Part shown: positions 7,728 through 38,954 of the stretch, piece by piece
Layout: every line of letters starts with the position of its first letter
How positions within the stretch are numbered: position 1 is the stretch's first letter
Origin: Lepiota brunneoincarnata
Taxonomy: Eukaryota; Basidiomycota; Agaricomycetes; Agaricales; Agaricaceae
Length of the DNA: 64,000 bases
Direction: 5' to 3'
Assembly: GCA_023014365.1 (NCBI GenBank)
Contig: JAEBUN010000011.1
Coordinates: 1,221,076 to 1,285,075 of the forward strand
Program-made: the position numbers and the translations under genes
Notes under the pieces: model-generated
Databases searched by the model: none
What the model was told of the DNA's origin: nothing
Seen by the model: the letters and a program-made list of their open reading frames with translations, nothing else

Positions 7728-10700
7728 CTACAAATCCAGTCCATTGAAAACTTCCTTGTATACTACATTGGTGGTTCTTTTGGTAATATTTTCTTCAGGA
7801 AATACTACTTTAATCCTGTTTGCAGATGTACATCTAGATAGTGCTACATACAATTGGCCATGTGAAAAAACTGGTGTCTGCAGATTAATTCCAACATGCT
7901 TTACTGACTGTCCCTGTGACTTGTTAATAGTCATTGTAAATGTAAGTTGTACTGGAAATTGCCTGCGTTGGAGTGGGATTGGAAGTGTTTCATCATTTGG
8001 CTTTAGTATAATTCTTGGAATTAATACTATTGTCCCTGCATATTTGGCATCTCCAGTTATAACTTTGCACTGTATTACCCTTCTCCTAATAGCTATTACA
8101 ACCATTCTTGTCCCATTGCAAAGTCCTTTTGATGCATCCAGGTTTCTTATAAGCATCACAGGAGACCCAACCTTCAGAGCTAACCTTGCAAGTGGTAGTC
8201 CACTTGCTTGAAGTGATTGAAGGTACTCTGCTGGATATGGTTGGTAGTCATTCAAGGTTGGGTTTTCCAGTTGTACTGAGTCTGCACTCATGAGTATATG
8301 AGTCTCTCCTGGAAATTTATCAAGAATGGTTTCATTGATATCATCCACCTCATCATTCCTTGAAGACAGAATTGTTCTGTCTAAGAAGTACTGGTCAGGC
8401 TTGTTGCCCTGTCCAATTTGAGGATAAGTGGAATCAATAAGGCTTTCTATAGAGTTCTCAGGGCAACACATTTCAGCAGGGATTTCAACAGTCTCAGCAT
8501 TATCCAGGGTGTTTCCTGCACCTATCCTGAGCAGCCATGCAGCATGTTGCTCTCTTTCTGGAGTGTTGTCTAATCTCATGTTCTGCTGCAAGTAATATAT
8601 TGTGACATTATTCCAGAGTGGACTACGAATGATAGAAGCACCAATAATTTCTTGCCTCAAGCCTTGTGGAACTACTGGCAATGTCTGACGGAAGTTACCA
8701 CCAAAGACAACTGTAATTCCACCAAAGGGTAAGTTTGTCCGGAATAAGTCTTGTAAGCAGCAATCAAGAGCATGAATTCCATGGCTATGTTGCATTGGAA
8801 CTTCATCCCAGATAATGATCTTTGTCTGCTGCAATACTGGGAACATATGAGATGTACGTGTAATTGGAGATACAGAAGTTTCATCTGCAGGTATTGGAAT
8901 TTTAAACCTGGAATGAGCAGTTCTGCCTCCCTCAAGTAATAGAGCAGCAATTCCAGAAGATGCAACACATAGTGCAATATGACCCCTAGATCTGACTGCA
9001 GCAGCAAGAGTATTACATACAAATGTTTTTCCACATCCACCTGCACTGTGAATAAAAAATATTTGTCCCAGGTTGTTATCCACAGATTGAATAGCAGCAT
9101 TATAGACATTGGCTTGTTCTTGATTAAAGAGCTGGGTGTTCCTTACAACCATAGCTTCCAGCTCAGCACGATTGTAGTTGAGTTGTTCAGCTAAGATAAA
9201 GTTGATAGGAATATCATCCCAAATTTCACCAGCTCCAGGACCCTGTGATAGGGGCATAGGTGGGAAGTCTTTAAGAGTTTTCCCTGAGCTCATCAGGATT
9301 TTATCAAGAAGATGTAAACCATAGTCATATCTTTGCTCAGGTGTAAATACCCAACCCTGGTAATGGGGAATCTGTTCTAGCCTCCTTGCAAGATCATCAC
9401 ATATAGAGTGCTTGAACCGATCCCAGAGTGCCTCTGGTGAAGATGGATTGCAGTTTTGTAAAATAACTGCAAACAATGCACGCAATGCAGATCCAGTCTG
9501 CATATGACTGGCCTCATCCAAGCACTGGATCCACTCTCTATCATTTTCTAGAAGTCCTCTTGCCAAACATGCCTCTCTAAATGTATTATAGACAACTCCA
9601 TCAAAGGTGCGTAAATATTCAAATGATGTTGCACCTGGGACAGAAGTCAACAGAAGTCTGAGGTAAAATCTTTCACCCTGTGCTGGAGATGCAAAATACA
9701 TCCTTCCAATTGCAGGATCACCCCGTTGCCTTGGAGACCACTGTTTATTTCCCTTTTTGTATACCCAAGCTCTTGGAAAGTCCTGATATAGTGTGTTATG
9801 TGCATCAGGATAATTCCGATTGGCTTCAAACCAAGCTGTGAGTATAGTTTTGTCCAGGTTGTCTCTAGCAAGAACTGCTTCTACATGATCATCCTCATTA
9901 TAGTAGATCAACTGTTGATTAGGCAAGTGGACTGGCAAGCGATAGACTGTTGGTGATTCTGCATGCATAGAGAATTCAAATATATGCCAACATGCTTCAA
10001 TTGGAGAAATATAGCGAGCATCAAGATACTCTTTGATTTCATCCCGCTGCTGATCCTGATTGGTTGAAAGCTCTAGAGTAGCTCGATCATGACCTTTGTA
10101 GATATATTTGTGAATGTACTTGACAGCCTCAACTAAAGCACAGATCTCTACATTAATGTGGCATTGATACTTTGAGCTAAGATATGCATTATAAGGTACA
10201 ACCCATCGGTTATCATATGTAAAACCACCTTTAACAAAAGTACAGCCATTATCAGGTCTAGCATACTTGGGATAGCCATCTTTCCCATATAGTGTGGCAG
10301 GATTGAACTCTTTTGGATACTTCTTGCTACATCTCCCATTTACCATACACTTGGCATTTGGGTGGTCATTTCCACAGGGACCATGTAACATCATGGTAGT
10401 AACTACATTGTATAGCTCAGGTTCATTAACTGGATCTGGCATCACAGCAGACACAATAGAATCAACATGTGCAGCATCCCGGATCTTGTCAGCAGGATCC
10501 AGGAATATTAACAGGTGCATGTGTGGTAATCCTCTCTTCTGGAACTCTATGGTATGGACCATTGCAACTGCTTTTCCAAAGAGACCTTGTTTAATTTCCT
10601 TCAGAAGAGCTTCTTTCTTCTGTTCAAAAACTCTAGCAACAATATCAGGTCGGTCTGTTACTGTCTGAGGCTTCTGATTATCACCTGAGTCTGCTTCCTG

Positions 10701-13107
10701 AATTTCAGGCCAGTTTGGATTAGCAGTCATAGTCAAGAAGATATCAGGCTTCCGAAAAGTTCTGCAAATAGCCATAGAATCCTGGAACAACTGATTCATA
10801 TGACGATCACTTCCAATATGTGTTGAAGGTAAGATTATTCTTCTGCCATGATTTTGGAGATTTAGGTTTTCATCTCAGTCACCAATAGCAATATCTCGAA
10901 GGCCTTGATAAACATCAGCTCTAATTTGTTTCTGATGAGTTCTAACCCAATTGAGATTACTCTGTTCAACTAAGGCCCAAGCATCAACAACATATTGTTG
11001 GAAGAGTTTACCACCCCAAAATAGTGGAGGCTGAGGATCAGATCATACATGAAATCGATAGGCATAATATGATCGTTGAGTCACAAATTTTGATCTGGTA
11101 TTGCCTGTTAGTCCAGGATGTGATCTAATTGCAGTATGCCATCCATCTTCACCATGTGGAAAGAGTAACACATAATGTAAGGAAGAGCAGGAAGGATGGA
11201 GGTGACTGATTCTCCAAAGTCCACCACCACTCAGACGTAATATAATATCTCTATGATCAGAGTGTTCCTCCAATCCACTGCCAGGAATTACTGCTGCAAT
11301 ATCATCACCTGCAGGAAGATTGTATCTTCTTTGGTCCCGTGATCTATCAGCATGTAGCTTGACAAATACTACTGGTTGCTTATTCTCAGGTTGTTGCTGC
11401 ATAATATCAAATGCACTTTTATACAGATTGATATAGGGATGTACTTGAGACAACATATCTCCAAGCTCAGCAAGTACAGCACAATCACAAAACCCTTGAT
11501 TATTTTGGGCTCTGATATCTGCTTGTTGTTGAGAATCATAAATGTAGATCTGTGCATATACTGGAGATTGGCCTTCAGCTGGCAAGAGAGCACCTGAGAG
11601 GTGGTGAAGTTCACCACTTATTTTAAAGCAGTAAGGACCTGAAGCTCGTGTAATTGATTCATCAATCTTAGTTCCAAGTGATGTAAATGCAAAGGCAGCA
11701 TTATATCGTCTGATGTTCCCTCTGAATGAATCAGATTGGGGACTAATACCACACATGTGTCGTCTCAGAGCAGGATGCATTTCCCTGTATGCAGGTAATT
11801 GGACTTGTCCTTGAAGGCAACAAACACCAAACTTGATGTTATCTCTGGTTGATGCTGTAAGTTTTTCAGAGTCAAAGTGAAGAGCTTGACAATATGAACA
11901 TTGAATGTTCATATGACCCAAGAAATGTGGTTCAATGGGTTCTTGATATGGACGGCGTCCTAGAGGAATAGGATTCCGATCCTGAGCATGATTTCTATGA
12001 TTTCTACGATTTCTATGGCCCTGAGCAGGATTTCTGTGCTCTGCATTATTCTCAGCCCTATTCTCAGCCCTAATATTTTGAGGTTCATTAATTAGAACCT
12101 CATGATCATTTCCCCACTCTTGGACTTGAAATTGCTCAAGATTTATCCTAGCCTGGTTATCAAGCTCATCAACTTCATTCTGAATGCCCAGATTATCCTC
12201 CTGCTGAAGTTCAGCTTGTTGCTCATCTCTCAGCTCTTGGAGAAATCTATCCAAAATAATCCCCTGCATTTCTGCATCCCTATCTGCCTGATCCTGTATA
12301 TCCTGTTCCACCCTTTGTGTAAGTACTTGCTCTAGTTGAGCAAGTCTTTGCTCTTGCTCCAGTTTAGCATGTCTCTGTTCCTGCTCCAACTGAGCAATCC
12401 TCTGCTCTCTTGCTCTTTGAGCAACCCTTTGTTCTTCTTCTAGTTGAGCAACCCTTTGCTGTTGTATTCTTTCTCTTCCCCTCAGTTCCTGCTCAAGCTG
12501 TGCTATACTTGGCCTATCCTGATCATGGGTTATATGTGCTATATGCCCCCTGTGCAAATTATTGAAAGCAGGATTAGCCTGAACACCTGAGATATTATGC
12601 TGTGGTCTCAGTGGTTGTGCAGCTCTACTGCTTCCTCTTCCTCTTCCCCTTCCTCTACCTCTACCCCTTGTATGTGAAGGTATAGGAGGTACATTTCTGG
12701 GAATAGGATGCATCACAGGTTGATCATACCCCTCTGGCATAGGAGTTTCAGGTATGGCAGATAATTGAACATGAGCATTAGATGGGCCAGCAGTAGATGT
12801 TGAAGGCCCTGCAATATTGGAAGGACCTGCTACCATAGATGGTGCTACTCTACTACCTCTACCCATATCTGCATTCATTACAAATGCTGATTGTAGAGTC
12901 TGAACAGATGCTGGATGCTCATCAGATACACCAACAGGTACAGGAACTGTATCCCCAAAATTGGGTTGGGAAGGAACAGCAAATAACCCTCGATTTCAGT
13001 TACAGCGCTCATCAGGATCTGTCATTTCCAACTGTCCTAACCGGTCTGCTGACTGGGTTGATTGGCGTAATTGTTCAGGAGTAGTGGGTGGTGAAAGAGG
13101 ATTCCTA
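7728..13107 (-). pseudogene. Helitron Rep-helicase, interrupted by three TGA codons
   Basis: One reading frame runs from about 13107 to the TAG at 7728 and is broken only by in-frame TGA codons at 12996-12998, 11043-11045 and 10875-10877. In order it shows an RG-rich, low-complexity N-terminus, a long Gln/Glu coiled coil (about 12200-12500), a CxxC/CC cysteine patch (about 11820-11920), and the HUH nuclease motif GLPHMHLLIFLD with a downstream YIHKYIYKGHD tyrosine motif. A Pif1-type helicase follows, with Walker A GGCGKT, Walker B WDE and a C-terminal TINKSQGQS motif. This is the protein that nicks and unwinds DNA in rolling-circle transposition. All three breaks could be former CGA arginine codons; otherwise the gene is well preserved, so the copy is recent but dead. 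Confidence 0.9.
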
Positions 13108-26275: not shown

Positions 26276-27311
26276 ATGCCTTCCTCTGTCCACTCACTCC
26301 CTTCTGAATCCACTCTTATTTCTACCCCACCTACTTTAGATGGGACTACCAGATCTTTGTCCGCCCAACCCGACTCCAACCACATCCTCTACCAATTCCT
26401 CGTCGAGAGTGCCCTTAATACCACTGAAAACACACCACTCCAACATCACGTACCACAACAGACCACTCCCCCCCATCCCATTCCACCCACCACCAAAACA
26501 CCAACCACCGTCCCCACTCCCCCACTCGTCGCTACCATTAGCGACTATCTTAACAAAGTCAACAGTGCCTCTACCCTCGTCTTTTCGCTTTTTATCACAC
26601 CAATGCCAGCAGTACCAACAGAAGTTCGTGATGACTTCTTCCAACTCCGTGAAAACCTCCTCTGTCTACAAGGTCTCAAACAAAGTGTCGAAAGAGTTAA
26701 GGAGGCCAACCAAAACACGTTCAACCAACTGTGGTCCAATCCCACTTTCCACAGAATATTTGCCAAGCATTGCAGCTCCTCAACCAGTATACGGATTACG
26801 CCCACAATCCCTAGTTTGCTTCAACCCACGCCGCCCGACCAACCATCCTGACGAATGCCTGTTCACTCCACTCACTGATGAGTTCGACCTGAACAACCTC
26901 CAAGCCCTGCTACCCCGCCTGTTGTCATACCCCCCCACCTCCGCACCACCACCCAGAACTCGAAGACAAACAGTGGACAAATTCACCCGCCGAATGGAAG
27001 CCCATCAACAGCAGGAAACCCACCCCCTACCCCAAAGACCTCCCCAACATCGTGCCAACCCTGCCCCCACACCCCAAACCGCAACAACCCACTCATATGA
27101 TGTTGGAAGAAATTGCTGCTTCGAATGCCACCAGGATGGCCACTGGGCACACAGCTGCCCCCTCCACACCTTGGCACCACATGCACCGCATCCACACCAA
27201 AAACCCGCAAGCCCATTGAAGATGCGCACTTATGTTACTGCCCGAACAAGTGATATTCAGGTCTACAATCCCACCCACGCTATAAACACTAGTGGCCGCA
27301 ACAACCGGTAA
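26276..27311 (+). pseudogene. RT1 extra 3' ORF with CCHC zinc knuckle
   Basis: Downstream of pol and before the 3' LTR an ATG at 26276 starts a Pro/Thr-rich, then helical frame to about 26780. A one-base shift moves the continuation to the other frame, which ends at 27309-27311. That part holds CFECHQDGHWAHSC (about 27117-27160), a CX2CX4HX4C zinc knuckle. The position is that of env in retroviruses, but no signal peptide or membrane segment is seen. A duplicated or captured gag-like nucleic-acid-binding protein fits better. The function is unknown. Confidence 0.6.
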
Positions 27312-30760: not shown

Positions 30761-31080
30761 TTAGTACTTTCTATAGCCTCCTTTTACCTTGATAACTACC
30801 TTGAGCCTTCTGGTCATGCTTTCTATAAGTTTTTAATACCTTTCTGCAGCAATCCTATTCCACTTTACCACCAACCTGTCACATAATTCATGTACTCCCT
30901 CAGGTGGGTTCCCATATCCCTTCAACCAGTCCTTCAGGTATATCCAGAGGTGTTCAATGGAATTGGGGTCAGGGGATTGTGTAGGTCATAGTAGAACTTG
31001 CATATTGTTATCTTCAAACCACTCTACTGCCCTTTTAGACTTGTATTTTGGGTCATTGTCCTGCTGGAATACCTACTCCT
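30761..31080 (-). pseudogene. Tc1-like transposase, C-terminal part
   Basis: Ends GGYRKY-stop (TAA at 30761-30763), the same C-terminus as the Tc1 transposase at 14413. It contains QSPDPNSIEHLW with the catalytic Glu. A TGA at the conserved Trp before PTQSPD shows TGG to TGA decay. Confidence 0.8.
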
Positions 31081-31743
31081 TGTTAGAGCCGGTGCGGGTT
31101 GGGACCGAAGCGGAGGGTCGGGGTGGTATCCTTGGTATAAGGTAACCAGGGGACAGGGCGAAGTCAGTACGTAGACTTCGGGACCGAGGCGGAGTACGTT
31201 GGGCGGGGGGTTGGACTTGCGGCCTCAGCTTATGTGCTGTGCCCTCCTACTGTCCTAGTCCGTATTTCAGGAAGTCGGAGCCGAAGCGGAGCGAGGCAGA
31301 AGAGAGGAGAGGATATGGAACAGGGAGCTGGTCCGCTGCTCGATTCGATTATCAGACTGAGGAGTACAAGCCAAGTGCCTACGGTATATATACTACTAGC
31401 TCGACGAATGATGACTCGTACTGACTACGTGCGGAGCGAAGCGGAGACCCATATGGTTACAAGCGGATTACGAATAATTTCCAATGGAATGGAGACCGGT
31501 ACGGGTATGGAGACTGGTAACGTATTCTGATTACGGACGGAGAATGGAGAACTGGACAATGGGAGCACTGAGGGTCAGGTGGTCGTGGCACGTGTAGAGG
31601 TAGGTCGCGTGATCGGGGCGAAGGGTTGCGGTCGGAGCCAGTCGGGGCCGAGTCGGAGGGCATAGGATTGTCGTGTGGAGCACACGTGGAGTCGAGAAGC
31701 CGAAGCCTAATGGTTAAGCTCTAGGTTTGGTGTGGATATGACA
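31081..31743 (-). repeat. RT2 3' LTR
   Basis: 663 bases. Differs from the partner at 38287-38949 by seven transitions, six of them at CG dinucleotides. Confidence 0.95.
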
Positions 31744-31758
31744 GTGCCCCCCCTTTAG
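31744..31758 (-). promoter_or_regulatory. RT2 polypurine tract
   Basis: On the element strand AAAGGGGGGCAC directly precedes the 3' LTR, the expected plus-strand primer. Confidence 0.75.
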
Positions 31759-31877
31759 GGCCGAGCCTCAAGGCCCAAGGCGGTCTAGACCGGGGCCCAC
31801 CGGAAAATTCCACGAGGGTATAAAAAAAAGGTGAACTGATTCGAATTTGAGAGGACACAACTTGACCTCCTACCCCC

Positions 31878-32963
31878 ATGAGCAGACAACCATCCCGTCA
31901 ACCGACCGCTACGGAGCGCAAGGCGCGATTACTGAGAGAGAAGGCGGAGCGAGAGGAACGAGAGCGGCTCGAAATCAAGAGGCTAGAAGAAGAGGAACGG
32001 CGAGAGGAGGAGGAGCGGCGGCTGGCAATAGAACGCCAAGAGGAGGAGCGACGGCGGCTCATAGAGCTGCGCCAGCGACAAGCGGAAGAGCGCGCGAAGG
32101 AGCGATATGCGGAGGAGATCAGGAGGCAGCAAGAGGAAACCGCCGAGGCAGAGCGTCGGGCGATTCGGGCCCGACTCGTTGCGACGACCACAGGGGCCTC
32201 GTCGAGCCGTCTGTCGGAAGACCCAATGCAAGTAGATACGGAGGAGTCGGATTCCGAATATACGGATAGGGATGAGGCGAGGGACGAGGAGGAAGAGGGG
32301 GAGGAGGACTCCGGGGATTCAGGGGGTAAGGGTAAGGGGAAGGCAAAGGCGAGGGCGGCCCCGCGACGGGGCCATGCGCACGTATTCGGGGGCGAGAATC
32401 CCTGCTGGAGGTGCCAGCGAGACAGGGCCCCATGTGAGGTGGCCGGCGGGTAAGTCATTTTGGAGGATTTCCGGACTACATACTGATAGTTTCTTAGTAA
32501 CACCAGGAGTTGCCGTTGGTGCAGCAAAATGAAAAAACGGTGTGGGGGTCAAGAGGAGACAGAGCCGAGCGGGGCCGGTGGTTTGTCAGGCCAGCAATTC
32601 GAAGGTGAGTAAGGAATCCTGTATTATGATGGATGCCAATTGATGGACCTTGTAGAGTTGAAACGGCTCATCGAAGAAAGGCACCAGGAGACCGTCAAGA
32701 AAATCTACACCCTGGAGGTGCGAATTGAGCGGTCCATCGCTCGGTTGGGGGAAAAGGTCGACAAGATGGGGTCGCTTGCTGGCCGCTACGAGCAACTACG
32801 GCGTTGGGAGGCTCAGGTGGACGGAAATTGGTCAAGTGGAAATTTTTCGGAGACGGAGGGTTCGGAGGGGAGTGTCGGGCCCGCTTCGGAGGAGGAGGTG
32901 CAGGATTTGATGGAAGAAGTGAATGGGTCGCCCGGGCTCTCTGGAGATGACACCGATAGGTAG
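31878..32963 (+). CDS. Coiled-coil Zn2Cys6-like protein carried antisense by RT2
   Basis: Three exons (31878-32449, 32507-32604, 32656-32963) with GTAAGT/CAG and GTGAGT/TAG introns add to exactly 326 codons, ATG to TAG. Residues about 10-95 form a very charged Glu/Arg coiled coil. An acidic stretch and a Gly/Lys/Arg basic patch (GKGKGKAKAR) follow, then the cysteine cluster. After splicing, CWRCQRDRAPC joins CRWCSKMKKRC to give CX2CX6CX6CX2CX6C, the spacing of fungal Zn2Cys6 DNA-binding domains; without splicing a TAA follows at once. The C-terminus has a second helical segment and an acidic tail. The gene is tail-to-tail with pol (69 bases apart) and lies inside the LTRs, so it moves with the element. 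A sequence-specific DNA-binding role is inferred from the cluster only. Confidence 0.8.
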
Positions 32964-33032
32964 TTGTACGGGGTTGTTTTTTTGGTTTGTTTAATACATG
33001 GTTGTTTCTTGGTGCGATGTGTGGTCAGTAAC

Positions 33033-36000
33033 TCAAAGTGAGTGAAGAGGACCAGGCTTTGCAGGGTAAGAGGAATGAAAAGCCTCTACGAGATCTATAG
33101 CATGTTCAAGCTCGGTGGCTGGCAACCACGAGGACTCTTCTTCAGTGTCTTCGTAACCTAACCAGATGACTTTATAGAGGAGCTTGCACGCGTGGCGCCG
33201 ATCGATCTTAGAGTCGACGATGCGGGCAATCTCGTATTCTGGTTCACCGTCAATGGAAACCGGCGCGGGCGGCGGATCCGATCGGGCGGGTATGGTGTTA
33301 GGTGTGGCTGGTTCGAGCATGGAAACATGGAAGACTGGGTGTACTCCACGCATGGAGTCGGGAAGTTGGAGTGTAAGGGAGTGAGTACCTGCTTGTGCAA
33401 TGATCTCATAAGGCCCAAGGTACTTTTCGGAGAGTTTTTTGGAGGGACGGGTGGTGCGGAAGAATTGGGCTTTCACGAATACCTTTTGTCCAACCTTGAA
33501 GTCCGGGGCGGGGAGTCGGCGGGCGTCGGCGGAGGTCTGATAACGTTGCTGGGCTAGCGCTATTTCGGACTTCAGGGTGGTATGTAGGTTGTCGAGATCA
33601 ACAGCAAAATGGCGGGCCCGGGCGGAGGCAAGATCATGTTCAGGATGAACTGTGATGTTCGGATGGTATCCTTTATTAGCGAAGAATGGGGAGATACCGG
33701 TGGTGGCACTAGGAGCGTTGTTGTAAGCAAACTCAGCTAGGGGTAGTAATTCGGACCAATTGTCCTGTTGGTAGTTACAATAGACCCGAAGGTATTGTTC
33801 GAGGGTCTGGTTGGTGCGTTCCGTTTGTCCGTCGCCTTCTGGATGGTAGCCCGAGGTGAAATGTAGCTTCATGTCAAGGGCTTGTCCCAATGAGCGGAAG
33901 AAGTGGGAGACGAATTCGGAGCCGCGGTCGGAGGTAACATGTTCGGGTACGCCGTGCTTGGAGAAGACGTGGAGGACGAATAGGCGGGCGAGGTCGGAGG
34001 AGGTGACGGTATCATAAGTCGGGATGAAGAGGGATTGCTTGGTGAGTCTGTCAACGATTACCAGGATGGCGTCATAGCCGGAGGAGGCGGGAAGTTTTTC
34101 GATGAAGTCCATGGAGATTGAATTCCAAGGGCGTTCGGGGATGGGGAGTTGCTTAAGGAGACCGTAGGGGCGATGGCGCTGGGGTTTAGACCTCATACAG
34201 GTGACACAAGACTTACAGAAATCCTTGACGAAGGTGCGGACGCTAGGCCAGGTGTATTCGCGCCGGATGAGTTCCAGCGTTTTATTCTGACCGAAGTGGC
34301 CGGCTAGGACGTGATCATGCTTGTACTGGAGGACCCGAAGTCGGAGATTGTCGGTGTCAGGGACGTAGATTCTGTCGTCTAAGAGGAGGAAACCTTTATC
34401 ATTAACTGACCAACGGCCTTCTGGGCTGGCAAGATGGGTGGAAGCGGTCGGATCCGCTGGTAGGGCGGCGAGAATATCGCGGTGTAGCTGATCGAGGTCC
34501 ATGACTACAGCTGCGCGAAGGGAAGGGGCGTAAAGAGTGGTGGCACGGACGGAGGCCGCGAGCTGTTCGTGAGTGAACACAGGCCGGAAGTTGTGCGGGT
34601 TGACTGATGCATAGTCGCTATTCCCCCCTTTAGGGTAGACGTCCCATCGTCTAGTTAGGGCGTCAGGCTTGGTGCCGAGGCGGCCGGGTCGGAAACGGAT
34701 GACGAGGTGGAATTGGGATAGGAACTCGGACCAACGAGCTTGGCGGCGAGTCAGGATCTTGGTGGTGCAGAAGTATTCGAGGTTCTTGTGGTCAGTGACC
34801 ACATCAATAGCAAGGGGGGCACCTTCGAGATAGTGCCGCCAGATGCGAAAGGCTTCGAATATCACCAGGAGTTCCTTGTTGTGAGTGTCATAGTTGAGTT
34901 CGGCCGTGTTAAAGGTGCGGGAATGGAATGCAACGGGATGGACCTCCCCATCGTCGGTGACGATAGAGAGGATTGCCGCAAGGGCGTAGTCGGAGGCATC
35001 GGTCTCGACAATGATCTGAGCGTCGGGGACCCAAGGAGTGAGGACGGGGGCGGAGATAAATGCTTCCTTCAGGGAGTTAAAGGCCTCGCGACAATCATCA
35101 GTAAAATTCCACTTCACGTCTTTGCGGGTGAGGCAAGTGAGCGGAACGACGATGTCGGAGTATCCGTGAATGAAGCGACGGTAGAAATTGGCGAAGCCTA
35201 GGAAGGACTGGATGTCCTTGACTTTCTTAGGCTTAGGCCACTCCTGGATGGTCTTGACCTTAGATTGGTCCATTCGGAGGCCGTCGGGGGAGAGAATGTA
35301 GCCGAGATATTCCACTGTGTCAGAGTGGAACTGGCATTTGTCAGGGCGGGCGTATAGACCGTGTTGGCGGAGCCGCTTGAGGACCTCCTTGACTTGGTCA
35401 CGATGGATACTATGGTTGTCGGAGTATATCAGAATGTCGTCAAGGTAGATAGTAACGCAGACGTCGAGCATGTCCTTGAATATATCGTTCATGAACCGCT
35501 GGAAGGTGGCGGGGGCATTGGTGAGGCCGAAAGGCATAACCATCCATTCGAAGGAGCCGTAGCGGGTCCGAAAGGCGGTCTTCCATTCGTCGCCGTCAGC
35601 AACGCGGACAAGATGGTAGGCGTGGCGGAGGTCGATCTTGGTATATACGCAAGCTTTGCGAGGGGAGTCTAAGAGGTCGGAGATGAGTGGAAGGGGATAG
35701 CGGTCCTTCTTGGTGATACGGTTGAGACCTCTAAAATCAACGCATAAGCGGAGGGAGCCGTCCTTTTTCTTGACGAAGAGGACCGGGGCTCCATGAGGGG
35801 AAGTGGAGGGGCGGATGAAACCAATAGATAAATGTTCGTCAATAAAATCACGTAGAGCTCCAAGCTCTGATTGTGAAAGGGAGTAAATGGTACCGACCGG
35901 AGGCTGACCGCCATCCTCTAGGTTAATCTGGAGGTCGTAAGGGCGGTGTGGAGCAAGTGTGTCAGCACGCGATTTACTGAAAACGTCAGCGAACTCGTGG

Positions 36001-36842
36001 TATTCCTCGGGGATAGACGAGAGGTCAGGCGGTTCCTCGGAGACAGAAGAGGACGCGGCCGATGCGGAGGCGGCGGAAAGATTTATTCGGAATTGTTGGG
36101 AGCCAGGGAGCTTGGCAGCGCGGATAAAGGCAGGAGCGTTTATCAAGGAGATGTGCGGTTTCGCAAGGGGGACAGATTGGGACGAGGTCCCGGACAGGGG
36201 TGGTGAACCTAGGTCAGGAGAGTCAGGGGCGGCCATAGGCGGAGCCGATGCGGGTGCGACGCAGGTAGAGACGGAAGCAGGATTCTCGAGTAGGGATGGC
36301 CGGAAAGTAATACTGCCCAAAGCCCAGTCAATCAACGGATTGTAGCGGGTGAGCCAGTTGTGTCCTAAGACCACAGAACAGGAAGAGTCGAGCCGGGTGA
36401 CATAAGTGTCCAAAATGATAGATTCACCGGAGGGGAAAGATACAGGCAGTTGCGCAAGCTCCGTAATGTAGGCATTTGAGGTCCCATCAAATAACCGAAG
36501 TTCAATAGCCGGAATGGACGAGGTTGGAATACTATGAGAACGAACAAAAGATGAGTCCACAAAACAGTGAGTAGAACCACTATCAACAAGGGCTTTGAAA
36601 GGAGAAAGAGAAGAGAAATCAGAACTAACTACATTGTCCGTTGTAGAAATCGGGTCCGAAGCGGAGAGTACGGAAGCGGAGACAGAAGATACAGAAGTAA
36701 TTAAAGGAGAAGTTAATGTGATATGAAAGGAGTTCGGGTCGGAAAGAGCGGACGCATTGAGACGGAAACTCTCTGGAGCACAGCAGAGTTCAATGCGATC
36801 CTCAGTCTGTGCAGAGGCCTGAGGACCGCCGACTATTTTTTC
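33033..36842 (-). CDS. pol: RT2 pol polyprotein (PR-RT-RH-INT-chromodomain)
   Basis: This open frame without stops runs from the gag overlap at 36842 to TGA at 33033-33035, about 1269 codons. It has no ATG of its own near the start and lies in the -1 frame of gag. Order: aspartic protease (LVDSGSTHCFVDSSF, about 36560-36595), reverse transcriptase (YTKIDLRHAYH; TIYLDDILIYS with YLDD), RNase H (VETDASDYALAAILS), and integrase with an H-H-C-C finger. The DDE triad is all present (MDFIEKLP, TSDRGSEFV, GDGQTERTNQ). A C-terminal chromodomain (YEIARIVDSKIDRR...YKVIWLGYEDTEEESSW) marks it as a chromovirus; chromodomains of this group steer integration to marked chromatin. All catalytic residues I can check are intact, so it may be active. 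Confidence 0.95.
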   Translation of the reverse strand, partial: EKIVGGPQASAQTEDRIELCCAPESFRLNASALSDPNSFHITLTSPLITSVSSVSASVLSASDPISTTDNVVSSDFSSLSPFKALVDSGSTHCFVDSSFVRSHSIPTSSIPAIELRLFDGTSNAYITELAQLPVSFPSGESIILDTYVTRLDSSCSVVLGHNWLTRYNPLIDWALGSITFRPSLLENPASVSTCVAPASAPPMAAPDSPDLGSPPLSGTSSQSVPLAKPHISLINAPAFIRAAKLPGSQQFRINLSAASASAASSSVSEEPPDLSSIPEEYHEFADVFSKSRADTLAPHRPYDLQINLEDGGQPPVGTIYSLSQSELGALRDFIDEHLSIGFIRPSTSPHGAPVLFVKKKDGSLRLCVDFRGLNRITKKDRYPLPLISDLLDSPRKACVYTKIDLRHAYHLVRVADGDEWKTAFRTRYGSFEWMVMPFGLTNAPATFQRFMNDIFKDMLDVCVTIYLDDILIYSDNHSIHRDQVKEVLKRLRQHGLYARPDKCQFHSDTVEYLGYILSPDGLRMDQSKVKTIQEWPKPKKVKDIQSFLGFANFYRRFIHGYSDIVVPLTCLTRKDVKWNFTDDCREAFNSLKEAFISAPVLTPWVPDAQIIVETDASDYALAAILSIVTDDGEVHPVAFHSRTFNTAELNYDTHNKELLVIFEAFRIWRHYLEGAPLAIDVVTDHKNLEYFCTTKILTRRQARWSEFLSQFHLVIRFRPGRLGTKPDALTRRWDVYPKGGNSDYASVNPHNFRPVFTHEQLAASVRATTLYAPSLRAAVVMDLDQLHRDILAALPADPTASTHLASPEGRWSVNDKGFLLLDDRIYVPDTDNLRLRVLQYKHDHVLAGHFGQNKTLELIRREYTWPSVRTFVKDFCKSCVTCMRSKPQRHRPYGLLKQLPIPERPWNSISMDFIEKLPASSGYDAILVIVDRLTKQSLFIPTYDTVTSSDLARLFVLHVFSKHGVPEHVTSDRGSEFVSHFFRSLGQALDMKLHFTSGYHPEGDGQTERTNQTLEQYLRVYCNYQQDNWSELLPLAEFAYNNAPSATTGISPFFANKGYHPNITVHPEHDLASARARHFAVDLDNLHTTLKSEIALAQQRYQTSADARRLPAPDFKVGQKVFVKAQFFRTTRPSKKLSEKYLGPYEIIAQAGTHSLTLQLPDSMRGVHPVFHVSMLEPATPNTIPARSDPPPAPVSIDGEPEYEIARIVDSKIDRRHACKLLYKVIWLGYEDTEEESSWLPATELEHAIDLVEAFHSSYPAKPGPLHSL

Positions 36843-38233
36843 AAGCTCGGGAGAGCCGGCGCGTCTGTCTCGGGGAGCTGAGCCTGTCGGCCTTTAGCCT
36901 TGGCATCAGGGAATTTTTTCTTGTCGCAGTTAGCAGCCCTGTGATTGGGATCTGTGCAGACAAGGCAGAGGTTATTGTCGAAACGTCGTTGACGTTCCTC
37001 GGGGGTTAATTTACCGTCCTTACCAAGTTTACTAGTAAGGTCGGATTTGGGCGGGGCCGATTTCTGACCGGCGGACGGGTTGGGCGGATTGCCCTTGAGG
37101 CTGGTGTTGGGCGTGCTGCCTCTGTTATTATTGGCAGGCTTGGCGGCAGGTTGCGGGTTGGTCGAGGTGGAAGGGGATGGGTTACCTCCAGGTTTCCTAG
37201 AGGCGGTCGGGTCCGAAACGGATTTGGCGCGGGCCTTCTCGTGTTGGCGTTCCCAGTAGCGAGCGTCGATCTTCATCGCTGCTGCTCGCATTTCGATGAA
37301 GGTGTCGGGCTTGCCGTCGGGCCGATTGGACAGAATGTCCTGGATGCGGTCGGGGAGGCCTTTGTAGTAGCGGTGACAGAATACTTCGTCACCCCAGCGG
37401 AGTTGGCCAGCTAGACGGAGGAAATCGACGTTGTAGACGGCGATCTTCTCGTCGTAGCGCATTCGGAGGGAGTCAAGCTGCTCAGCAGCTTCTCCGGTCG
37501 GATCCGCGGGACCGAAATTGGTCTGCAGTTCCAGGGTGAACTGGTCCCAGTCCTCGATCCAGTTGTGTATTATTCCGTGGTTGTCGGCCTCATCGAGGCC
37601 GATTTCGAAGTGTTGCTGTGCCACGCCTGTGAGGTATGTCAACGCGAAGTTGACCTTGGTGGCGGGGATAGCGAACTGGGCCGGGTTAGTACGGAAATAG
37701 AGCCGACATTGGAAGAGGAAGGGTTTGAGTTTGGCGGGGTCGGAACCTGTAAAGATGTCAGGTTCGCGAGCTTTGGTACGGGGAGATCGAGGAGGCTGTG
37801 GGGCTTGAGAGTTCCCACGGCCGTCCATTTGGTCGGCTATGCGTTGGAAAACTCGGAGTATGAGTCTATCATGGTCGTCTCGGGTGTTGCCAGGTGGGAT
37901 GTTGTTGTTGTTGTCGCCGTTGTCTGATGGTTCGTCATCGCCCGGGGGCCCGTCCCCATTGTCAGGGTAGTCGTCGGGATCACCAGGGTCGCTGGGATCA
38001 GGATTGGGGTCGGGGCCGTCGTCGGGGCCATCGGGAGTCCGGAATACTGAAGGTTGTATATCTTCAGAGAAACGGTCTGGGGTCGAGGGTGCGATCGATT
38101 GTTGGTGAGAGCGAGAAGCCCTCGGGGAGTCGGGTTGCAGTTCCTCGGAAGGAGGTTGTCGAGTGATGCGTTTGCTACGGCGAGCGGCTGGAGTTACCAG
38201 AGTGTGAGTACGGGTAACTGTTCGAGAGACCAT
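36833..38233 (-). CDS. gag: RT2 Gag
   Basis: 466 codons from ATG 38233 to TAG at 36833-36835. The N-terminus is basic, followed by an Asp/Pro/Gly-rich region and the gypsy capsid domain (about residues 160-330, including FALTYLTGVAQQHFE and LRWGDEVFCHRYYKGL). The C-terminus has a zinc knuckle CLVCTDPNHRAANC (CX2CX4HX4C). It ends in Lys-Lys on a run of six A directly before TAG, and pol continues in the -1 frame from that point. Gag is the structural protein of the particle and binds the element RNA. Confidence 0.95.
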   Translation of the reverse strand: MVSRTVTRTHTLVTPAARRSKRITRQPPSEELQPDSPRASRSHQQSIAPSTPDRFSEDIQPSVFRTPDGPDDGPDPNPDPSDPGDPDDYPDNGDGPPGDDEPSDNGDNNNNIPPGNTRDDHDRLILRVFQRIADQMDGRGNSQAPQPPRSPRTKAREPDIFTGSDPAKLKPFLFQCRLYFRTNPAQFAIPATKVNFALTYLTGVAQQHFEIGLDEADNHGIIHNWIEDWDQFTLELQTNFGPADPTGEAAEQLDSLRMRYDEKIAVYNVDFLRLAGQLRWGDEVFCHRYYKGLPDRIQDILSNRPDGKPDTFIEMRAAAMKIDARYWERQHEKARAKSVSDPTASRKPGGNPSPSTSTNPQPAAKPANNNRGSTPNTSLKGNPPNPSAGQKSAPPKSDLTSKLGKDGKLTPEERQRRFDNNLCLVCTDPNHRAANCDKKKFPDAKAKGRQAQLPETDAPALPSLKK

Positions 38234-38286
38234 GGTTAGAAAAATTCAGAGTGTGGTGGACAGGAGGAGTTTGAGTCTGATAATAC

Positions 38287-38949
38287 TGTTAGAGCCGGTG
38301 CGGGTCGGGACCGAAGCGGAGGGTCGGGGTGGTATCCTTGGTATAAGGTAACCGGGGGACAGGGCGAAGTCAGTACGTAGACTTCGGGACCGAGGCGGAG
38401 TACGTCGGGCGGGGGGTTGGACTTGCGGCCTCAGCTTATGTGCTGTGCCCTCCTACTGTCCTAGTCCGTATTTCAGGAAGTCGGAGCCGAAGCGGAGCGA
38501 GGCAGAAGAGAGGAGAGGATATGGAACAGGGAGCTGGTCCGCTGCTCGATTCGATTATCAGACTGAGGAGTACAAGCCAAGTGCCTACGGTATATATACT
38601 ACTAGCTCGACAAATGATGACTCGTACTGACTACGTGCGGAGCGAAGCGGAGACCCATATGGTTACAAGCGGATTACGAATAATTTCCAATGGAATGGAG
38701 ACCGGTACGGGTATGGAGACTGGTAACGTATTCTGATTACGGACGGAGAATGGAGAACTGGACAATGGGAGCACCGAGGGTCAGGTGGTCGTGGCACGTG
38801 TAGAGGTAGGTCGCGTGATCGGGGCGAAGGGTTGCGGTCGGAGCCAGTCGGGGCCAAGTCGGAGGGCATAGGGTTGTCGTGTGGAGCACACGTGGAGTCG
38901 AGAAGCCGAAGCCTAATGGTTAAGCTCTAGGTTTGGTGTGGATATGACA
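38287..38949 (-). repeat. RT2 5' LTR
   Basis: 663 bases, carrying the presumed promoter of the element, which is transcribed leftwards. Gag starts 53 bases downstream. Confidence 0.95.
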
Positions 38950-38954
38950 CTCCT

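Follow-up and report, generated by a model that had tools for sequence, protein, structure and literature searches.

An intron-containing antisense gene kept in a clade of chromodomain Ty3/gypsy retrotransposons of Lepiota brunneoincarnata: a candidate DNA-binding regulator

The window, which is the whole stretch of 64,000 nucleotides analysed from Lepiota brunneoincarnata, contains on its minus strand RT2, a chromodomain Ty3/gypsy element (31081-38949) whose features are collected in the table. RT2 has the organisation of a Ty3/gypsy chromovirus, with gag followed by protease, reverse transcriptase, RNase H and integrase in that order and by a chromodomain (29.5 bits against a Pfam cut-off of 25.1), the whole being enclosed by long terminal repeats (LTR). 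The exact junction pattern between the LTR and the polypurine tract (PPT) of RT2 was matched 165 times in the genome and never in the reversed control. The gag and pol frames, assigned by hand, overlap by 61 nt (36833-36893, minus strand) in a -1 relation, which suggests -1 frameshifting. The window also includes a Helitron (7728-12995, minus strand) with an ORF of 1048 codons encoding Helitron_like_N and a PIF1 helicase, upstream of which lies a 650-codon ORF having no Pfam match.

Between pol and the 3' LTR, and tail to tail with pol, a plus-strand gene extends from an ATG at 31878 to a stop codon ending at 32963. A first-pass annotation had placed a three-exon plus-strand gene at this position of a minus-strand gypsy element, and the sequence, Pfam and the LTR alignment confirmed it, the details of the model being corrected as follows. 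Several acceptors of intron 1 keep the frame when the RT2 copy alone is considered, and the one chosen initially, at about 32507, was wrong; diverged copies with other intron bodies (ending in TTAG in one type and in CCAG in another) place the acceptor at 32497. The spliced protein is therefore 328 residues long and not 325, and the central spacing of its cysteine cluster is CX9 and not CX6, giving CX2CX6CX9CX2CX6C. Intron 1 parts Cys 1-3 from Cys 4-6, so that the cluster exists only after splicing, as had been proposed; if the intron is retained, a stop is reached within two codons past the end of exon 1 (five copies checked).

Features of the RT2 element and of its antisense gene (positions in the window)
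Feature	Position	Strand	Evidence or remark
3' LTR	31081..31743	-	663 bp; gapless alignment to 38287-38949, 7 mismatches
5' LTR	38287..38949	-	alignment to 3' LTR
Target duplication, 5 bp CTCCT	31076-31080 and 38950-38954		flanks both LTRs
Polypurine tract adjoining 3' LTR	31744..31760	-	sequence
gag, overlapping pol	36833..38245	-	Pfam Retrotrans_gag 2.6e-09
pol	33033..36893	-	Pfam: protease, RT, RNase H, integrase, SH3_Tf2-1, chromodomain
Putative TATA box of antisense gene, inside the element and outside the LTR	31819..31824	+	TATAAA
Exon 1	31878..32449	+	Glu/Arg-rich stretch, acidic and Gly-Lys stretch, Cys 1-3
Intron 1	32450..32497	+	48 nt, phase 2, GTAAGT...TTAG, branch-like CTGAT
Exon 2, Cys 4-6 and linker	32498..32604	+	dN/dS median 0.089 among intact copies
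Intron 2	32605..32655	+	51 nt, GTGAGT...GTAG
Exon 3, long helix (exon residues 2-60), acidic tail, stop	32656..32963	+	dN/dS, AlphaFold2 model
Six-cysteine cluster CX2CX6CX9CX2CX6C, split by intron 1	32403..32543	+	kept in 30/31 intact copies

The spliced protein comprises, in this order, a Glu/Arg-rich stretch, an acidic and Gly-Lys stretch, the cysteine cluster, a short linker, a long helix and an acidic tail. The Glu/Arg-rich stretch (approximately residues 12-100, with 29 E and 25 R among 89 residues) makes up more than a quarter of the protein and is likely to form a charged helix. Among the 31 intact copies described below, for which an intact frame was a condition of inclusion, its length varies in whole codons only, and exon 1 of copy L010 (1520-2155) shows an in-frame expansion relative to RT2 by ERQEEERRQLI repeat units. 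The helix of exon 3 is predicted by a single-sequence AlphaFold2 model of that exon alone (mean pLDDT 80.7, pTM 0.40), in which pLDDT reaches 92-98 in the first five blocks of ten.

The spacing allowed in a Zn2Cys6 cluster (PF00172) is CX2CX6CX5-12CX2CX6-8C, and that of the RT2 protein falls within this range. The proposal of a Zn2Cys6 transcription factor held as far as the six cysteines and their spacing are concerned and was weakened in other respects. The Pfam profile Zn_clus scored the whole protein at 11.4 bits and its zinc-helix piece at 14.8 bits, below the gathering cut-off of 21 bits (best E-value among six family members 0.0035), and the basic stretch is located in the second half of the cluster, whereas typical Zn2Cys6 proteins have it in the first half. 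Ten matches were obtained in the PDB; 6e33 (E 0.8) and 6o19 (E 1.6), which we take to be fungal Zn2Cys6 proteins, are weak and span the whole cysteine cluster, and the remaining eight, several of which have better E-values, belong to helical proteins of no evident relation. Pfam scans of the antisense protein at E up to 10 gave no bZIP family. A search of 5.8 billion proteins returned no homologue except one sequence identical to RT2's own exon 3; phage records contained no match to window positions 31500-33200, and the viral contigs searched with pol contained no relative of RT2 pol.

Throughout the 55.6 Mb of genome searched, the DNA of the antisense gene has at least 40 matches of 97-100% identity (199 candidates), and the zinc exon at least 150 matches (191 candidates) of 58-100% identity, the weakest among the matches listed having E 6.4e-26. 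Counted by hand among the 150 listed, 126 zinc-exon matches are free of stops in the 86-residue segment. The frame is thus carried by other copies of the LTR family, as the listed zinc-exon and DNA matches attest. A gene match is paired with 123 of the 150 pol 3' ends listed (949 candidates), always on the opposite strand, and among the matches listed (150 pol ends against 150 gene matches) none is found on the same strand within 3 kb of a pol end; 27 of the 150 listed gene matches have no listed pol end. Ten of the 27 listed pol ends lacking a paired gene adjoin other exon pieces, and for one (C23:454556) a listed gene match lies at a distance of 2.7 kb; the other 16, some of them shortened, may contain a third gene type or no gene.

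For comparison 48 copies were studied, namely 40 fetched for diversity, mostly with a long open exon 1, and eight loci from the DNA matches, including that of RT2 itself. In 47 of them the best pol piece is opposite to the antisense gene, the exception being L039, where it lies on the same strand and exons 2 and 3 are missing. The motif TATAAA occurs 52-65 bp 5' of the ATG in 46 copies; L032 is without one base of it and in L034 that stretch is deleted. Older copies of the clade (e.g. L041-L045) are broken mostly by TGA stops and show changes of Arg to Gln, Trp or stop, a pattern of decay that looks like a CpG or RIP-type process.

Both introns are retained in the copies, each with GT-AG borders in 45 of the 48; a splice site or its region was lost in L016, L027, L039 and L041. 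The interior of intron 1 diverges by up to about 50% while its GT-AG sites stay, and from this conservation of splice sites splicing by the host can be inferred. With up to 3 mismatches allowed, no genomic site matches the spliced exon 1-2 junction; the exon 2-3 junction has a single match, with 3 mismatches. The start of exon 2 has 170 matches with at most one mismatch, the reversed control giving 5. The absence of the spliced exon 1-2 junction indicates that the reverse-transcribed sense RNA does not lose the introns, and this bears out the suggestion that an intron-containing antisense gene has been moved in many copies. Such retention fits a passage through sense RNA: the introns would be read as introns in the antisense RNA only, so that the sense genomic RNA would carry them unspliced through reverse transcription and new copies would keep them.

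A copy was considered intact when the frame was kept, exon 2 measured 107 nt and no stop preceded residue 300. There were 31 such copies among the 48, a share biased upwards because copies were picked mostly for a long open exon 1; L016 has an intact frame and has lost a splice donor, so that 30 of the 31 would make the full mRNA. The six cysteines are kept in 30 of the intact copies (29 with the same length of cluster, one a residue shorter), one copy having lost a cysteine. Over the 445 of 465 pairs with dS > 0.02, the median dN/dS of the whole protein is 0.187 and the fraction of pairs with a ratio under 1 is given as 1.00, far from the neutral ratio by which the first-pass annotation had proposed to recognise a chance open frame. 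The medians are 0.123 for the Glu/Arg helix, 0.203 for the acidic part with Cys 1-3 and 0.262 for exon 3, exon 2 with Cys 4-6 being the most constrained part (its 107-nt length is among the conditions for intactness). Differences at third codon positions are 2.3 to 2.5 times as frequent as those at the first and second. In exon 1 the median dN/dS is 0.164 in frame, compared with 1.47 in the other two plus-strand frames and 1.50 and 1.71 in two minus-strand frames, and the seven closest copies gave a pooled pN/pS of 0.33. The substitution pattern indicates that the antisense frame is under purifying selection; with pol at 0.117 in the same copies, where covered, it is slightly less constrained than pol.

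The remaining minus-strand frame also has a low median dN/dS in exon 1 (0.267), and the true gene could accordingly be sought in a 216-aa ORF on that strand (31898-32548), an env-like or extra sense gene of which the plus frame would be the shadow. The low value is explained by the coincidence of its third positions with those of the plus frame; it is higher than the 0.164 of the plus frame, a Pfam search of the ORF at E up to 10 gave no match, and of the 31 copies with an intact plus frame 22 have the ORF interrupted, for which reason it was rejected as the coding frame and its probability is considered negligible.

The antisense RNA itself might instead be what matters, by forming double-stranded RNA with the sense transcript and so acting in copy-number control or silencing, the protein being secondary. 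Any sense transcript that terminates in the 3' LTR has to run through the antisense gene in full, and control by antisense RNA is discussed in the available portions of PMC7264820 for plant elements and of PMC10648671 for mildew elements. An RNA role would, however, not keep codon structure or splice sites, and the dN/dS of 0.19 together with the whole-codon length differences among intact copies demands a protein, which makes this explanation improbable.

The exact-PPT list is complete for contigs C1-C31, on which 91 of the 150 listed pol ends are situated: 67 have the full spacing from pol to PPT, 11 a shortened one, varied in length (45-921 bp), and 13 no exact PPT. Long pol frames (at least 1278 codons) are present in 33 of the 67, 5 of the 11 and 1 of the 13. 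Two of the five shortened ends with a long pol keep parts of the gene, exons 2 and 3 at C1:3285383 and part of exon 3 at C14:2868900. The gene has thus been lost by deletion more than once, sometimes beside an open pol. This argues against its being absolutely needed in cis and would agree with a protein that acts in trans.

In two other chromovirus families of this genome (RT1 and L049, one copy each) no antisense gene was seen. Both have a sense ORF 3' of pol with retroviral-type zinc knuckles CX2CX4HX4C (window 26340-27311, plus strand, and L049 144-1352, plus strand), as if the nucleocapsid part had moved there. Likewise, no antisense gene was seen in L050 (1-5313), a distant chromovirus found in a search of genome contigs, with a pol 44% identical to that of RT2. 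This sequence, in which an LTR-like stretch stands directly behind pol and is followed by gag, is filed in a Bacteroidetes metagenome bin, of which it looks like a eukaryotic contaminant. A host gene transduced once would look alike in a single copy, and the lack of the gene in these three elements would suit a one-off capture or a chance open frame; the occurrence of many diverged copies at the same place and under selection makes either highly improbable, even though the ultimate origin of the gene may be a host gene. When both strands of the window were scanned for pairs of CX2CX6C half-motifs, in any frames and separated by 30-130 nt, the antisense-gene site alone came up, and this, with the many copies and the selection, rules out a chance motif or chance open frame.

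Distances between copies, which as pairwise values are not independent and are given descriptively, without a significance test, divide the gene into blocks. Those of the promoter, exon 1 and intron 1 correlate with one another at 0.76-0.91 and those of intron 2 and exon 3 at 0.94, while there is little correlation between the two groups (0.12-0.26); exon 2 is intermediate (0.50-0.83) and exon 3 partly tracks the end of pol (0.62). The mean difference is 0.10 for the LTR, lower than for exon 1 (0.17) and intron 1 (0.31), and the correlation of the LTR with exon 1 is weak (0.30); the LTR was therefore not just carried along with the block. The median dS of pol is 0.212, against 0.834 in exon 1 and 0.692 in exon 3, and in 264 of 465 pairs the dS of exon 1 exceeds twice that of pol. 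Copies L001 and L036, for example, differ by a dS of 0.027 in pol and 0.044 in exon 3 and by 1.24 in exon 1. Judged from these distances, almost identical elements have exchanged two blocks, one made up of promoter, exon 1 and intron 1 and the other of exon 3. The route was presumably template switching when RNAs from related elements were packaged together, which gives no reason why the deepest variation sits here.

It is tempting to speculate, although we consider it rather unlikely, that the gene encodes a regulator which recognises its own kind. Its specificity would lie in the half formed by its own promoter, exon 1 with Cys 1-3 and intron 1, and this half would exist in several deeply diverged types and be swapped as a cassette between near-identical elements. 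Sub-families could thereby escape or exclude one another's control, which would amount to a system of immunity groups inside an LTR retrotransposon.

Antisense genes at this place were already known in LTR elements, and the spliced zinc-cluster version appears to be new here, as far as titles and abstract openings disclose: a literature search at that level, with most subscription papers beyond its reach, gave no report of such a gene in a basidiomycete LTR element. The word 'antisense' is absent from the main text of 'LTR Retrotransposons in Fungi' and of the Tcn1 chromovirus paper. The closest fungal case is Boty / BcGypsy1 of Botrytis cinerea, which, according to Zhao et al. 2011 as cited in PMC7264820 and PMC8365987, has an additional antisense gene, brtn; Boty and RT2 are both fungal gypsy LTR elements with an antisense gene in the interval from pol to the 3' LTR, the former being taken here from the citing papers only. 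By its position the RT2 gene would count as an aORF-3R, the class of additional antisense ORFs so placed. Plant elements contain antisense ORFs as well, including Retand TRP28, Grande gene23, RIRE2 and PvRetro13, whose function is left open in the accessible parts of PMC11963269 and PMC7264820 and in whose main texts the word 'intron' does not occur. The product of Grande gene23 is described there as nuclear and its promoter as upstream (PMC7264820); Retand differs from RT2 in that it is not a chromovirus and encodes another domain, TRP28 (PMC11963269).

Among viruses, HTLV-1 HBZ and the APH genes of HTLV-2/3/4 are, on the available account in PMC10186651, antisense, spliced and located at the 3' end of the provirus, and HBZ is a nuclear regulator. 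The RT2 gene resembles them in its antisense position at the 3' end, and its conserved introns would give it a spliced mRNA as well. HBZ is unlike it in having its promoter inside the 3' LTR and a bZIP in place of a zinc cluster, and in belonging to an unrelated virus; moreover, splicing alters the N terminus of HBZ, whereas in RT2 it would make the putative DNA-binding domain itself (PMC10186651, in part). By this analogy the best reading would be that the RT2 gene works like HBZ, as a selected nuclear DNA-binding regulator.

A second comparison can be made with the fungal Gal4-type Zn2Cys6 factors. In Gal4 the zinc cluster is followed by a linker and a helix, and the RT2 protein likewise has six cysteines in the allowed spacing, then a linker and a helix; it departs from these factors in its score below the Pfam cut-off, in having its basic residues in the cluster's second half and in the Glu/Arg-rich stretch before the cluster. 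The weak Zn2Cys6 match and that stretch leave considerable room, if less than for a regulator, for a selected protein which is no DNA-binding regulator and has another task, for example in assisting RNA or the nucleocapsid, in tethering integration, in counteracting silencing or in telling self from non-self between element families. The exchange of exon blocks between near-identical elements would fit a recognition role as well as regulation, and a nucleocapsid helper would suit the finding that a Pfam scan of RT2 gag at E up to 10 gave no zinc knuckle. On the other hand, an own promoter and an antisense placement would be odd for a particle protein, and it is exon 2, with Cys 4-6, that is most constrained.

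On balance we lean towards an accessory antisense gene of a chromodomain Ty3/gypsy clade, from whose host-spliced mRNA a predicted nuclear DNA-binding regulator of the element's own transcription or integration would be made. This preference derives from the gene's own TATA box, the constrained second half of the zinc cluster, the helix after the cluster and the analogues HBZ, Grande gene23 and Retand TRP28, as far as the available sources describe them. The TATA box, just inward of the 3' LTR, would drive an antisense mRNA to be spliced by the host; the product would be nuclear and combine a charged helix with a zinc cluster of six cysteines and, at the C terminus, a helix for dimerisation. 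Such a protein might bind element DNA, in the LTR or promoter region, and could thereby tune how the element is transcribed or integrated, acting in trans on related copies.

The case shows how antisense placement can allow a gene with introns to survive retrotransposition. With well over a hundred copies in one genome, a zinc domain that requires splicing, purifying selection and exchangeable types, it provides a natural system, and it opens two testable questions: whether antisense proteins of this kind act on their own LTRs, and why a regulator would shuffle faster than the polymerase.
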